In this document: piece after piece, positions 39,988 to 48,678 of the stretch
How the letters are laid out: the number at the start of each line of letters is the position of its first letter
Numbering within the stretch: the stretch's first letter is position 1
NCBI RefSeq assembly: GCF_003935895.2
Contig: NZ_CP054058.1
Span: 930,001-994,000 of the forward strand
Source of the DNA: Scandinavium goeteborgense
Lineage (GTDB): Bacteria > Pseudomonadota > Gammaproteobacteria > Enterobacterales > Enterobacteriaceae
Direction of reading: 5' to 3'
DNA length: 64,000 nt
The notes under the pieces: model-generated
Databases searched by the model: none
Told to the model about the DNA's origin: nothing
Seen by the model: the letters and a program-made list of their open reading frames with translations, nothing else
Translations under genes and position numbers: made by a program

Positions 39988-40022
39988 ACTACCACCAGAG
40001 GTGCAAATCTCTTGGTGGTAGC
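39988..40022 (-). promoter_or_regulatory. Leader hairpin with GTGCAAAT loop before the Ner gene
   Basis: TACCACCAGAG and CTCTTGGTGGTA form a stem with one bulge around the loop GTGCAAAT. Adjacent TTTGCAC at about 40032-40040 is complementary in the other sense. This is the likely target region of the upstream C4-like RNA. Confidence 0.55.
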
Positions 40023-40149
40023 CCAGACAGGGTTTGCACTACCGGCCTACAAGGACACCGGCCAGCCCTGAGGCTGCCCTGCCTGAGCCACCATTGAAGT
40101 TGTGAGTACAGTTTTTGAACTGTCCAAACAGCGGGTGTGCAGAGGCTTT

Positions 40150-40230
40150 GACACTTAATGAAGAACATTAAGTGAATCCTGTAGTTTCTGGCGGGGTGCA
40201 AATCCCGGCTGTAGATTTTGCTACAGCGGG
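40150..40230 (-). ncRNA. C4/CI-like antisense RNA (P1/P4 type)
   Basis: Read on the minus strand, this segment has three hairpins: CTGTAG/CTACAG; GGG/CCC enclosing ATTTGCA; and ACTTAATG/CATTAAGT. The short TTTGCAC segment can pair with GTGCAAAC in the Ner leader, just as C4 of phage P1 and CI RNA of P4 pair with targets downstream in their own transcript. Rfam family membership is from memory of the C4 pattern, not a search. Confidence 0.55.
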
Positions 40231-40234
40231 CGAG

Positions 40235-40264
40235 ACTATATCGCAAATCGAAGACGTTAACCAA
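40235..40264 (-). promoter_or_regulatory. Promoter of the C4-like RNA / Ner transcript
   Basis: On the minus strand TTGGTT (40264-40259) and TATAGT (40240-40235) are 18 bases apart, placing the transcript start just before the first hairpin. Confidence 0.6.
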
Positions 40265-40414: not shown

Positions 40415-40447
40415 CAAGTGGCTCTGGTAACCATTGATGGAGAATTT

Positions 40448-40487
40448 TGGTGGAGCTGGGGGGATTTGAACCCCCGCCCGAAATTCT
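40448..40487 (-). other. tmRNA (ssrA) 3'-end fragment, probable prophage att site
   Basis: Read on the minus strand the segment is GAATTTCGG, then GGGGGTTCAAATCCCCC, then CAGCTCCACCA, which has the T-arm and acceptor end of tmRNA. Homology stops at once inside the prophage, so no complete ssrA is here. In E. coli ssrA lies on this side of stpA in this orientation, so the intact gene should sit at the far end of the prophage, beyond the window. Confidence 0.75.
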
Positions 40488-41012
40488 TTAACGCTATGAA
40501 ATATAAAGAAAAATAATCATTCAGTTTAAGCGCGTATCTTTGACGTGTACTCTGCATTTTTTAAACATCGTTATCGAAAAATTTCTAACTGTGAATTAAA
40601 TAAAAAGGTCGATTACAAGGCGAACTAAGAATTTATTTAGGATAACAAGAGTATCAAACTAAGAATTTTTTCTGCTTTCATAACATATTGAATTTATTGT
40701 TAAATTTTATTGTGATTTATCATAACTAATTGAATTTAAATAAATAGCACTTTTTGATCCTCTGGTGCATATGGTTTTTTGTTGATAACTTCAATGTTAT
40801 GAACAGACTTATGCACAATTACGTTTTTGACTATGCTGGCTATCAGGCTTATTTGTAAATTATTTTAAAGTCAATGGGTAAAGCATTGCATTAGACATTG
40901 ACAACCATATTTGTGGGTGGCCGGCTTAGCAGTCTTCATGTAATCTTACGGGACTAAAAGAAAAAACTATTGCTACATATTTTTGCTAACCATCTGTTAG
41001 ATAAGGTGTTAA
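40488..41012. other. A/T-rich gap without gene
   Basis: No open frame of note is seen. The strong A/T bias continues into the following cargo genes and probably includes their promoter and integrase arm sites. Confidence 0.6.
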
Positions 41013-41828
41013 ATGCCGCAACCAGCTACTAAAGCGCATCTGATCAGCAAAGAGCTCACTGCATATCTCATTAAAGGTGTCCGTCTCGATGACGTATCCT
41101 TCAGAAGGTATCTTCGTGATGTTGATGCTCTCAAGGACTCAGTGGTTGAAGACTACCTCAAAGCTCTCGTGTTTGGGGCATACGGACGTGAAGCTGATGC
41201 AATTACGCACTTTGAACGTTCATTACAGGTACGCCACAATGAAGTTGTTGCTAGAAACTTCCTTGTTTATTTATCTGATTTTGGAAGTTTAGGAAAAAGC
41301 TTTCTCGCAAGTGTAGATCTTGCTGAGAAATATGTTTCGCCATTTATCTATTTAAACGCCTACGAGAATTCTATTTTTGTTGGAAAAATGAACTTGGCCG
41401 AAAAATATTTTCACTCTTACTCTAAACTGTTCGATAGTGAGGAGCTTGAGACTATGGAAAATAAATTTGATGATGTTTTATTTGAAGTGAATTCCTTTAA
41501 AGAGAGCGCAGGGATATCTACACTCGAATATGAACTTCTTTTCGAAAATATTACTAGCGTAATGGATTCTCATAAAATACATCCAGCTGCAATAAAATTT
41601 TATGATATTTCAGAAGAGAAAGTTAATGCTTTGGTATTAGTTGCTAAAACTTCTGATATTGAACTGCTTGCTGATATGAATGTTGAACTCGCATTCTCGC
41701 TGGCTGAACATGATTGCTTAATGCAAAAAAACTTTTCTTTATGGTTTGAAGCTGAAGAGGAACAAACTGCTGCAAGTTCTGCTTCAGATTTAGTACGTGT
41801 TACAAGGAGTATGCTTAATGCCGGTTAA
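41013..41828 (+). CDS. Unknown cargo protein, TPR-like N-terminal half
   Basis: This 271-residue soluble protein is not recognised. Residues 50-140 look like helical tetratricopeptide-type repeats (GAYGREADAITHFERSLQ is a typical unit). The C-terminal half is acidic. AAGGTG precedes the ATG. It overlaps the following HEPN-like gene by 11 bases, so the two form one operon at the prophage edge next to the integrase, a usual place for accessory defence genes. Its base composition is richer in A/T than the host. Confidence 0.72.
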   Translation: MPQPATKAHLISKELTAYLIKGVRLDDVSFRRYLRDVDALKDSVVEDYLKALVFGAYGREADAITHFERSLQVRHNEVVARNFLVYLSDFGSLGKSFLASVDLAEKYVSPFIYLNAYENSIFVGKMNLAEKYFHSYSKLFDSEELETMENKFDDVLFEVNSFKESAGISTLEYELLFENITSVMDSHKIHPAAIKFYDISEEKVNALVLVAKTSDIELLADMNVELAFSLAEHDCLMQKNFSLWFEAEEEQTAASSASDLVRVTRSMLNAG

Positions 41829-42201
41829 TAGTCATGATTTCCTTGGCTTCGCTAAAGATTGCCATGCTAGAGCAGACGAAATTGGTTACCGTAATGCCAT
41901 CGGTAGAGCATACTACAGTTCTTACCATCATGTTTTGCCTACTATGACAAATGGACCTAAGGACAGTCATCAGGGGCTTATAGACTATTTACAGGGCGAT
42001 GCCTGTCGAGGTCACGAAACCTATGACTCGAAATATATGAGGGGCATCAGTTTCATTCTTACGCAGCTAAAGGCTCAAAGAATTATTGCTGATTATCGAT
42101 TGGATCAGCTCGTCTCTGCAAGGCAGTCAGGATTAGCCATTGGTATGGCTGAACGGTTGATCGATAAATGCTCAGAGATGACCAAATCAATAGCTTCATA
42201 A
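41818..42201 (+). CDS. HEPN-like protein
   Basis: This 127-residue all-helical protein has the motif RAYYSSYH (Arg30 to His37), which fits the Rx4-6H signature of HEPN ribonucleases used in toxin-antitoxin, abortive infection and RNA-cleaving defence systems. AAGGAG lies ten bases before the ATG, inside the upstream gene. Function is inferred from the motif only. The partner may inhibit it or sense infection. Confidence 0.68.
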   Translation: MPVNSHDFLGFAKDCHARADEIGYRNAIGRAYYSSYHHVLPTMTNGPKDSHQGLIDYLQGDACRGHETYDSKYMRGISFILTQLKAQRIIADYRLDQLVSARQSGLAIGMAERLIDKCSEMTKSIAS

Positions 42202-42221
42202 TATAAAGCCACTAAGTGGCT

Positions 42222-43388
42222 TTATATTTGTTCAATCTGCCTGTTCACATTTCCATCATATTCTTTTAAATAAGTTCCATAATGTCTAAATAGCATTTCC
42301 GGACCTTTATGCCCCATTTGACCCGCCAGCCAGAAAAGGTTAACACCTTGGCTAATTTGACGCGTTGCAAATGTGTGGCGTGTTTGGTAAGGATTACGAT
42401 ATCTGATGCCAGCTTTCCTAAGTGTAGGGACCCAAGCCTTCTTTCTGATAGCATCAGCATTAGCCCAGGCTTTTTCGGTTTTTGGATCCTCAAAAATAGT
42501 AGCATTTTTCATGAATGTGAATGACTTCTGCTGGGTGAGAGCAAGCATTGCTTCGTCTGTTAGATCTACCTTACGTGTACCTGCTTTGGTTTTAGTCCCC
42601 TTGATTACCCCTGAAACACTAGCATTCTGAACATGTGCAGTCTTACGAATAAAATCGATATCTTCCCAGCGCAACGCGCAGAGCTCTGAACTGCGCAAAC
42701 CCGTATGGATCGCAAATCTGAATAGGTTCTCCCATTGCTTATTTACTGCTGAATCTAAAAGAACATTCACTTCTGCCGGCGTGAGTGGATCGACAATGTA
42801 ATTACCCTCTGATTCTGTTTTATTGCTCAGATAGCGTGAGGCGGTAACAAGGGAAACAGGATTTATTTGTAAGACACCATCGGTTATTGCTTCATCGAGC
42901 GAAGAACGTAAAAACGACAACCTATTACGGATCGTTTTTAGAGTCGTTGTTTGACTCTGAATCCAAGTCTTTAGGGCCGCAGGCGTTAATTCACTGGCCG
43001 GAAAAATATTTAGTGATACAAGTGCGCTCCGGCATTTCTTATATCCATCAATTGTGGAGGGTGACAGGCCTCTTGTTTCACAAATTTTCAGGTATTCATC
43101 GAGATACATTTTTACCGTTTTCCCTGTCGCTGCGTTACCGAAAATTTTCAGTCGCGCAGAACGTGGAAAGTATTCCGTATAGACAAAGGTGCCTCGTTCT
43201 ATTTTGTTATGAATCTCGCCGAGCGTTCGAGCGGCATATTTAAGGTTTTTATTGTTCACTTCGAGATTAGAAAGCGGCTCTCGGCATTTAACACCTCTGT
43301 AAGTGAACGTTATATTTATGGTTTCACCGCTGCTATGTTTCCTAATGGTTATGCCGCGTGGGAGTTTAGGCGATTCTGTCGTGCCCAT
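42222..43388 (-). CDS. int: Tyrosine-recombinase prophage integrase
   Basis: This 388-residue integrase has an arm-binding N-terminus, a SAM-like core-binding domain (about 90-190) and a catalytic domain with Arg in TGLRSSELC, the HxxR box TRHTFATR, GHKG, and the tyrosine at about 370 in RHYGTY. It lies 1.7 kb from the tmRNA-derived att. Its start overlaps the excisionase gene. Confidence 0.95.
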   Translation of the reverse strand: MGTTESPKLPRGITIRKHSSGETINITFTYRGVKCREPLSNLEVNNKNLKYAARTLGEIHNKIERGTFVYTEYFPRSARLKIFGNAATGKTVKMYLDEYLKICETRGLSPSTIDGYKKCRSALVSLNIFPASELTPAALKTWIQSQTTTLKTIRNRLSFLRSSLDEAITDGVLQINPVSLVTASRYLSNKTESEGNYIVDPLTPAEVNVLLDSAVNKQWENLFRFAIHTGLRSSELCALRWEDIDFIRKTAHVQNASVSGVIKGTKTKAGTRKVDLTDEAMLALTQQKSFTFMKNATIFEDPKTEKAWANADAIRKKAWVPTLRKAGIRYRNPYQTRHTFATRQISQGVNLFWLAGQMGHKGPEMLFRHYGTYLKEYDGNVNRQIEQI

Positions 43389-47622: not shown

Positions 47623-47797
47623 GAACAAATACCCAGAGATAAACAGCGTCTGGAAGGACTCCCATGGACATATGGTCAGAATCATGGAGAACGACACTGA
47701 TGCACAGAAAGTGATTTATCAGCGCGTTGGCTATGAATGGGACTGTCAGGCACCGGTGATTTTGTTCAATGCACGGTTCGTGAGGGTTATGCAGTGA
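47606..47797 (+). CDS. DUF4222-like phage protein
   Basis: This 63-residue protein with pattern WKDSHGHMVRI ... VIYQRVGYEWDC resembles DUF4222, a small lambdoid family of unknown function. GGAGG precedes it and its stop overlaps the next start as GTGA. Confidence 0.65.
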   Translation: MLRSTENKYPEINSVWKDSHGHMVRIMENDTDAQKVIYQRVGYEWDCQAPVILFNARFVRVMQ

Positions 47798-48678
47798 GTA
47801 CCAAATTATCCTCATACGTCTGGGACGGATGTGCAGCGTCCGGGATGAAACTCACCAGCGTAGCCATCATGGCGCGTTTGGCTGATTTTAGCAGTGACGA
47901 AGGTGTCTGCTGGCCGTCTATCGAGACTATTGCGCGTCAGTTGGGCGCAGGCCTTAGCACAATTCGCACGGCAATCAGTAACCTTGAAAAAGAAGGCTGG
48001 TTGACCCGTACGCAGCGCCGTAAAGGGAACCGTAACGCCTCAAACGTATACCGCCTGAACGTGACAAAACTCCAGGGTGCGGCCTTTTCTCACCTGTCAG
48101 ATTCTGACACGTCAAAATCTGATACATCAAAATCTGATACATCAAAATCTGACCCCTCAAAATCCGACGCGTCGAAATCTGGCAAAGCAGGGGGGGTTGA
48201 CCCGGCAGAATCTGGCGGGGATCCGTCAGTAAATTCAAAACAAGATCCATCAGTAAAATCAAAACCCCTTTGTCCGGTTGCGGCGCAACCCGACCCCGAA
48301 GTTTTAATCACTGACAACGCGATTGAAGTTTTAACCCACCTGAACCGGGTAAGCGGCTCACGCTTCCAGAAATCAAAAACATCCCTGGAAAACATCCGGG
48401 GTCGCCTGCGAGACGGTTACAGCGTCTGCGACCTGAAACTGGTTATCGACCTGAAACACAGGGACTGGAACGGTAACGATGATATGTATCGGTACATGCG
48501 ACCAGAGACACTTTTCGGTCCGAAAAAATTTGAAGGGTATTTACAGGATGCTTTGCGCTGGGAGCAGAAAGGTAGACCGCTGCGTGATACCTGGGGCGGC
48601 GAGAAAAAGCATGACCCGATGAAGTTCGGCCCGGTTGATACAGCTATTCCAAAGGGATTTAGAGGCTCATCACTATGA
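47794..48678 (+). CDS. Replication protein O-like with winged helix
   Basis: This 294-residue phage replication protein has an N-terminal winged helix (about 15-90, PSIETIARQLGAGLSTIRTAISNL), a Ser/Asp/Lys-rich linker made of five-residue repeats (SDTSK, about 102-130) and a C-terminal conserved domain (about 175-250) of the phage 2220-C type. It starts with GTG. The repeats in its gene form a probable origin. Confidence 0.82.
   Translation: MSTKLSSYVWDGCAASGMKLTSVAIMARLADFSSDEGVCWPSIETIARQLGAGLSTIRTAISNLEKEGWLTRTQRRKGNRNASNVYRLNVTKLQGAAFSHLSDSDTSKSDTSKSDTSKSDPSKSDASKSGKAGGVDPAESGGDPSVNSKQDPSVKSKPLCPVAAQPDPEVLITDNAIEVLTHLNRVSGSRFQKSKTSLENIRGRLRDGYSVCDLKLVIDLKHRDWNGNDDMYRYMRPETLFGPKKFEGYLQDALRWEQKGRPLRDTWGGEKKHDPMKFGPVDTAIPKGFRGSSL
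48097..48186. repeat. Six 15-bp iterons, probable phage replication origin
   Basis: Six head-to-tail units close to TCAAAATCTGATACA lie inside the replication gene, followed by A/T-rich bases (48230-48265). Lambda and its relatives hold ori as iterons inside gene O in the same way. Confidence 0.7.

Follow-up and report, generated by a model that had tools for sequence, protein, structure and literature searches.

A prophage of Scandinavium goeteborgense carries, between its attachment site and its integrase gene, a two-gene operon encoding a TPR-like protein (P1) and, as judged from sequence and structural model, a HEPN protein (P2). We hold the chances to be about even that the pair constitutes a self-contained toxin–antitoxin-type defence module, in which P1 would serve as antitoxin and sensor and P2 as an RNase that brings about abortive infection. 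If this is right, the operon represents a widespread, unnamed prophage defence or toxin–antitoxin module, and P1 gives HEPN toxins a new kind of partner domain, with sensor and clamp separated. The features discussed are compiled in Table 1, where positions refer to the window, i.e., the whole stretch of 64,000 nucleotides that was analysed.

Table 1 Features of the P1/P2 operon and its surroundings in the window
Feature	Position	Strand	Remarks
P1 gene	41013-41828	+	271 aa; TPR-like helical repeats and C-terminal alpha/beta domain; predicted antitoxin/sensor; phrog_17809, 1.3e-34
P2 gene	41818-42201	+	127 aa HEPN protein (by sequence and model); predicted RNase effector; phrog_5176, 3.7e-28
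P1 TPR-like repeats	41139-41423	+	residues 43-137; model helix pairs, TPR profiles in family members
P1 C-terminal alpha-beta-beta-alpha-(alpha)-beta domain	41520-41753	+	residues 170-247; model; predicted HEPN-binding part
attL core	40447-40486	.	40 bp; copy of ssrA (tmRNA) 3' end
Inverted repeat, terminator-like	42200-42228	.	perfect 14 bp, 1-nt loop; between convergent P2 and int ends
Prophage tyrosine integrase	42222-43388	-	PF12167 (Arm-DNA-binding) + PF00589 (phage integrase); convergent with operon

The P2 start was set at ATG 41818; the mechanical ORF list begins seven codons upstream, at GTG 41797. The two ORFs overlap by 11 nt, Shine–Dalgarno-like runs were found for both P1 (AAGG, 41003–41006) and P2 (AAGGAG, 41804–41809), and the genes are presumably co-transcribed. 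Their G+C contents are 37.6% (P1) and 43.6% (P2); the part of the window that belongs to the prophage has 48.5% and the window as a whole 51.8%. A 40-bp direct repeat (98%, 39/40) connects window positions 40447–40486 with contig position 1013466–1013505, and the latter copy, attR, coincides with the 3' end of a tmRNA gene that is itself intact. This pair of att repeats at the tmRNA gene delimits a prophage of about 43 kb and places the operon between attL and the integrase; long ORFs in the far half of the prophage look like portal, capsid and contractile-tail genes. The initial annotation had described two overlapping A/T-rich genes at the prophage edge and had taken them for edge cargo. Both descriptions held: the overlap and the base composition are as given above, and the operon lies just inside attL, facing the integrase. 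The terminator scan did not list the 14-bp inverted repeat, and the promoter scan (6 found, 6.2 expected) gave no evidence either way. The arrangement is not a chance one, given that its order and spacing recur in homologous operons at many loci. For the nearest relatives, L006 and L007, dN/dS was 0.10 (P1) and 0.05 (P2); synonymous sites were nearly saturated when these two were compared against the window copy.

P2 of the window gave no Pfam match at E 1, and its assignment rests on family members. PF05168 matched 19 of the 50 rows of the P2-family alignment (A3) when rows were scanned singly (best 3.5e-7), and the A3 profile found the PDB HEPN proteins 9xbd, 9xbc and 2hsb (E 9.7e-11 to 4.2e-7); a literature search returned no relevant paper on 9xbd/9xbc. 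The model of P2 (pLDDT 93.6) is all-helical, with helices at 5–17, 21–42, 71–93 and 101–126 and an insert at 51–64. Considered as a layout alone, this is the four-helix HEPN core with an insert between helices 2 and 3. The earlier proposal that the second protein is a HEPN protein was thus borne out by the family matches, by the three PDB proteins and by a confident structure prediction, the check that had been suggested for it. On sequence and model we assign P2 to the HEPN proteins of the PF05168/AF0298 type.

The catalytic motif originally put forward had to be abandoned. Arg30 and His37 are present, but they lie in helix 2, not at the end of helix 3, where the available part of PMC3710099 locates the HEPN Rx4-6H motif; their position and this description together rule them out as the HEPN motif. 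The canonical Rx4-6H is absent from the end of helix 3 in P2, which reads Arg88-xxx-Asp92-Tyr93 and contains no His. In the AF0298 type, according to the same partial source, the motif His is lost and a substitute His is provided from the insert (PMC3710099). This alternative is present in P2, with Arg88 at the end of helix 71–93 and His51 in the insert, and both residues align with their counterparts in 2hsb. His51, Arg88, Asp92 and Tyr93 are kept in all 50 rows of A3. The active site of P2 is therefore, as far as alignment and model indicate, likely to be formed by Arg88 with His51, and P2 would act as an RNase, although the absence of the canonical HEPN histidine counts against catalysis. 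Most A3 rows and all of the loci L094–L151 were found via a search pattern containing Arg25, Arg30, Tyr32 and Tyr33, which inflates the conservation of these four residues. A profile search free of the motif pattern gave 22 distinct sequences; in these, His51 and Arg88 were conserved in 21 each, Arg30 in 19 and His37 in 18, so the latter two may still matter. A total of 81 distal HEPN sequences, of which 58 came from a pattern fixing Arg30, contained His51 together with Arg88 in 73 cases and Arg30 together with His37 in 67.

The reading of the first protein as TPR-like was likewise upheld. P1 of the window alone matched Pfam TPR with E 0.17, below significance, and the call rests on family members: TPR_2 matched 16 of 48 (best 3.3e-6), and the family profile found designed TPR proteins in the PDB. 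In the P1 model (pLDDT 91.2) helix pairs begin at 43/60, 77/93 and 110/126, i.e., with a periodicity of 33–34 residues; they are followed by the alpha-beta-beta-alpha-(alpha)-beta domain (170–247) and a low-confidence tail. This C-terminal domain, which the initial annotation had not noted, is conserved and also occurs in a few partners without recognised TPRs. No convincing relative was found in Pfam or PDB, the best PDB match (E 0.0034) being a helix of a designed protein. The order of its elements resembles that of type II KH domains; two KH models each matched one of 40 P1 C-terminal family members weakly, which we treat as a lead only. The pattern GSx7-12DxD was present in two of 48 P1 proteins, both times within the C-terminal domain, and absent from window P1. 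Of 874 pairs, 542 (104 of 119 in the 45–60% band) were better conserved in the C-terminal domain than in the N-terminal part; since the TPR part is the more divergent one in only this share of pairs, a fast-evolving sensor is not clearly seen. The P1 profile gave matches in 74 of 398 phylum genomes; with the match in the window's own operon excepted, those listed covered mostly TPR columns at low scores and were read as ordinary TPR proteins and set aside; one match, in genome G270, adjoins a HEPN match.

The P1–P2 pair is a unit. The first searches yielded 92 loci, among them the window copy and numerous near-duplicates, and every one has a HEPN gene. In 87 of them an ORF of 200 aa or more lies upstream, its end no more than 20 nt from the HEPN start; these fall into 48 groups at 85% identity, and 77 of the 87 upstream ORFs (the window's own included) matched window P1 by BLAST at 1e-5. 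Distances between P1 proteins and between P2 proteins were correlated (r = 0.859, 48 sequences), a value reached by none of 5000 permutations in a test that ignores shared ancestry. Moreover, of the 874 tabulated pairs (HEPN identity at least 30%), 856 were more similar in P2 than in P1.

The location of the module differs among phages, with no one position common to those examined. It lies between Q and the lysis genes in some E. coli lambdoid prophages, precedes a ylcG-type gene and lysis genes in Chronis, and is located elsewhere before the tape-measure gene, among baseplate genes or beside a P2-type gene A. The position between att and int was found in the window and in E. coli loci L215 (L215:3274-4462) and L222, and L006 and L007 retain an adjoining integrase. 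The occurrence of the same pair in many different phages suggests a mobile anti-phage or toxin–antitoxin module. An integrase related to that of the window is present in 535 of 5426 E. coli genomes, and we inspected the integrase-side slot at seven of 550 places. One slot contained the P1/P2 module, one DarT with a NADAR antitoxin and one an AAA ATPase with Dam; two held a single gene of no known function each, one a STAS-like gene flanked by two genes of no known function, and one ParA with two further genes of no known function. Hence, four of the seven slots carry genes without a known defence role, which counts against a defence reading. On the far side of the cargo, five of these slots show a 25–27-nt part of the att core; L216 and L219 do not. 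Citrobacter phage phiNP, whose integrase region is related to that of the window, has an AAA ATPase in the slot that matches PtuA, AriA and GajA models (among 114 PADLOC models). The cargo on the integrase side thus varies, and anti-phage types of gene are among it. If the defence reading is right, it suggests that the att–int slot of ssrA-integrated prophages is a place of anti-phage gene exchange.

A function in superinfection exclusion or as a toxin–antitoxin pair, proposed in the initial annotation, is plausible. For the defence module we propose the following course of events. P1 would be made first, from the same transcript as P2, and would bind P2 via its C-terminal alpha/beta domain, keeping it silent. 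The TPR superhelix would sense a component or product of the incoming phage; once it is engaged, P2 would be released and cut RNA, the infected cell would stop, and this abortive outcome would protect the resident prophage and the clone. The part in which P1 holds P2 derives from gene order, coevolution and the broken loci described below; sensing, RNA cutting and arrest are proposed by analogy with PD-T4-10 and Tha. For copies between Q and the lysis genes late expression could be expected, which counts against a role in defence. An unlikely alternative is a plain addiction module, in which P1/P2 punishes prophage loss without sensing phages and the TPRs set the stability of P1 or aid binding. 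It would account for the antitoxin-first order with overlap, the homology to HEPN toxins and the few loci that, by ORF reading, lie outside an obvious prophage (L112, and L010 between two chromosomal-looking ORFs), but the module resides in slots that carry defence-type genes in some sister prophages, and a solenoid of 165 residues would seem to exceed the needs of a simple antitoxin.

Broken loci bear on the sign of control. L012, L024 and L053 (broken or cut) as well as loci more than 85% alike were left out of A3 and A2, and L003 and L010 were included in A3 only; L053 is cut by a contig end, and only four broken loci are informative. In L010 and L012, the TPR part of P1 has been lost or is out of frame, and an open ORF for the C-terminal domain is kept together with an intact HEPN gene. 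L003 lacks a recognisable P1 and encodes a shortened HEPN protein with Leu for His37 and His as the next residue. In L024, P1 is intact and the HEPN gene is apparently frameshifted. These loci fit P1 as inhibitor and P2 as toxin. We regard it as rather improbable, somewhat more so than addiction, that P1 is an activating adaptor that captures a phage component and switches on a P2 inactive by itself, or brings it its substrate. TPR proteins commonly serve as scaffolds, and the tight coevolution of P1 and P2 fits either sign of control, but an inhibitor agrees better with the gene order and with the loci in which the TPRs are gone while the C-terminal domain and an intact HEPN gene persist. Finally, a lytic-phase or host-takeover moron that aids its own phage, e.g., by shifting host RNA decay, and does not exclude others is very unlikely: copies between Q and lysis genes, before the tape-measure gene and among baseplate genes would agree with it, but no position is common to the phages examined, and the att–int location with a terminator-like repeat separating the operon from int suggests expression in the prophage.

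Returning to the toxin–antitoxin-type defence module, we asked where else the presumed HEPN-binding domain of P1 occurs. A search profile was built from the C-terminal domain of 48 TPR-type partners only, with the best of 1180 shuffles (4.8) as cut-off. Five distal upstream ORFs scored above the shuffles, namely those of L112 (19.1), L200 (11.5), L139 (11.4), L109 (10.9) and L208 (8.1). An iterated search with the domain joined 10 of 59 candidate distal upstream ORFs, some of which are short spurious ORFs, and left out 49; a looser iteration (E < 0.02) had joined 11 distal partners and was replaced by this strict count. The ORF in L112 encodes 82 aa consisting of the C-terminal domain only; 7 bases separate it from the HEPN gene that follows and 154 bases from the preceding ORF, which is of a different kind. 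In L139 the domain is preceded by 132 residues without a Pfam match. Look-alike partners in Planctomycetes and Chloroflexi MAGs were dismissed as lacking statistical support. The few cases support, by sequence comparison, the view that HEPN binding resides in the C-terminal part and that the portion in front of it can be exchanged. We tentatively suggest, although we would sooner expect otherwise, a third class of HEPN toxin control by an adaptor that is neither a nucleotidyltransferase nor a fusion, with the C-terminal domain as dedicated clamp and an exchangeable front, which in the majority of proteobacterial phages considered here would be a TPR superhelix and elsewhere another N-terminal part or none. 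If the front is indeed exchangeable, one RNase could be wired to different phage triggers.

We compared the pair with known systems. HEPN-MNT pairs (HepT-MntA, type VII), as presented in the accessible parts of PMC11586414 and PMC3710099, resemble P1/P2 in having two genes with the partner first and HEPN second and a conserved Tyr next to the motif, equivalent to Tyr93 in P2, but their partner is a minimal nucleotidyltransferase with GS...DxD, and P1 is not recognisable as one. GSx7-12DxD was found in three of the 59 distal upstream ORFs, one of which (L204) is MNT-like by sequence. UPF0332/AF0298 (PDB 2hsb) matched the P2 profile over 20–125 and shares the counterparts of His51 and Arg88 and the Asp-Tyr after the Arg; it differs by a Thr where P2 has Arg30. 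We know of no TPR partner of 2hsb. The LA2681 HEPN family is, in the excerpted text of PMC3710099, fused to or in an operon with TPRs, as in the P1/P2 operon, but is listed as a HEPN family different from that of P2. No Pfam HEPN family other than PF05168 matched the 50 A3 rows at E 0.1. PD-T4-10 also comprises two overlapping ORFs, the first an antitoxin and the second toxic, and confers abortive protection on E. coli (PMC9519451, as far as its available sections go); PADLOC listings for 50 P2 and 48 P1 proteins contained no PD-T4-10 model, and the library may hold none. Tha, likewise a prophage-borne defence (Staphylococcus aureus), relies on a HEPN RNase that phage tail proteins activate. 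It differs in being one polypeptide of 301 aa with a classical RxxxxH, whose inhibitor is encoded by an overlapping antisense gene, and no TPR partner is described in the portion of PMC11087260 at hand. A BrnT-like Acidovorax system was set aside as unrelated to P1/P2, going by the available extract of PMC10714953.

With PADLOC 2.0.0, HEPN_IX matched 26 of 50 P2-family members (best 1.9e-5) and PDC-M05B models up to six of 50 (best 2.2e-4); in the P1 family nine models matched one member each, and there was no single system whose models matched both P1 and P2. The pair had originally been described as corresponding to no nameable system, and none of the libraries scanned (Pfam, PADLOC and, for window P1 only, NCBIfam) contained a family that names it. 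Figures and supplements of recent defence screens aside, we identified no paper that describes the pair. The part of the DefensePredictor study available (PMC13092281) reports, in addition to DS-11, four validated HEPN-containing systems of E. coli, with TPR listed in its figure legends, and the P1/P2 operon may be among these HEPN systems.

P2 was detected in 8 of 198 genomes of the host's family and, at E 1e-6, in 20 of 398 genomes of the phylum, the own genome being included in both counts. In a scan of species genomes, the P1 profile (E 1e-3) picked out a partner at 22 of 58 loci. Among the phylum loci L189–L211 (n = 23), 17 had an upstream ORF of 224–281 aa, with L190 and L210 sharing one; the others had an MNT-like gene (one), a 120-aa ORF (one), or none or a 62-aa ORF (four). 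Some loci, e.g., L008 and L095, were counted in more than one set. In 5426 complete E. coli genomes, one variant occurred in 43, others in 12 and 2, and one in none; in the rows shown, the copies were annotated as hypothetical proteins. Megablast with the window operon found no E. coli relative, and it took inspection of the integrase slot to reveal the E. coli module, which shows 60% and 73% protein identity. At L108, L109 and L190/L210, two HEPN-type modules or HEPN genes lie within about 1–4 kb of each other.

Further observations concern the surroundings of these loci. In a module-bearing Klebsiella phage, a TIR-domain gene is located on the opposite strand downstream of the tape-measure gene (L093:25582-26460), and in Yersinia phage YP3 (L003:3389-4366) the shortened HEPN gene stands alone, preceded by a second, near-identical copy of a ~100-aa gene with a structural annotation. 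In the window, a C4 antisense RNA (40011–40239, minus strand; 80.5 bits, gathering 45) is situated just outside attL, with sub-threshold isrK and c4-a1b1 matches in the same region; it may be the remnant of a phage immunity RNA or part of another adjoining element. A tRNA-Ser gene followed by four tRNA-Arg(ACG) genes was found at 328–1181, and the ORF at 47737–48678 contains near-identical SKSDTSKSD repeats (~48095–48260), possibly variable in length. Near the attR end, a 290-aa ORF (L154:18070-18942; contig C2:1012070-1012942) whose start resembles a signal peptide in sequence carries repeats of the type GNPVNMVAGVKNDPT.
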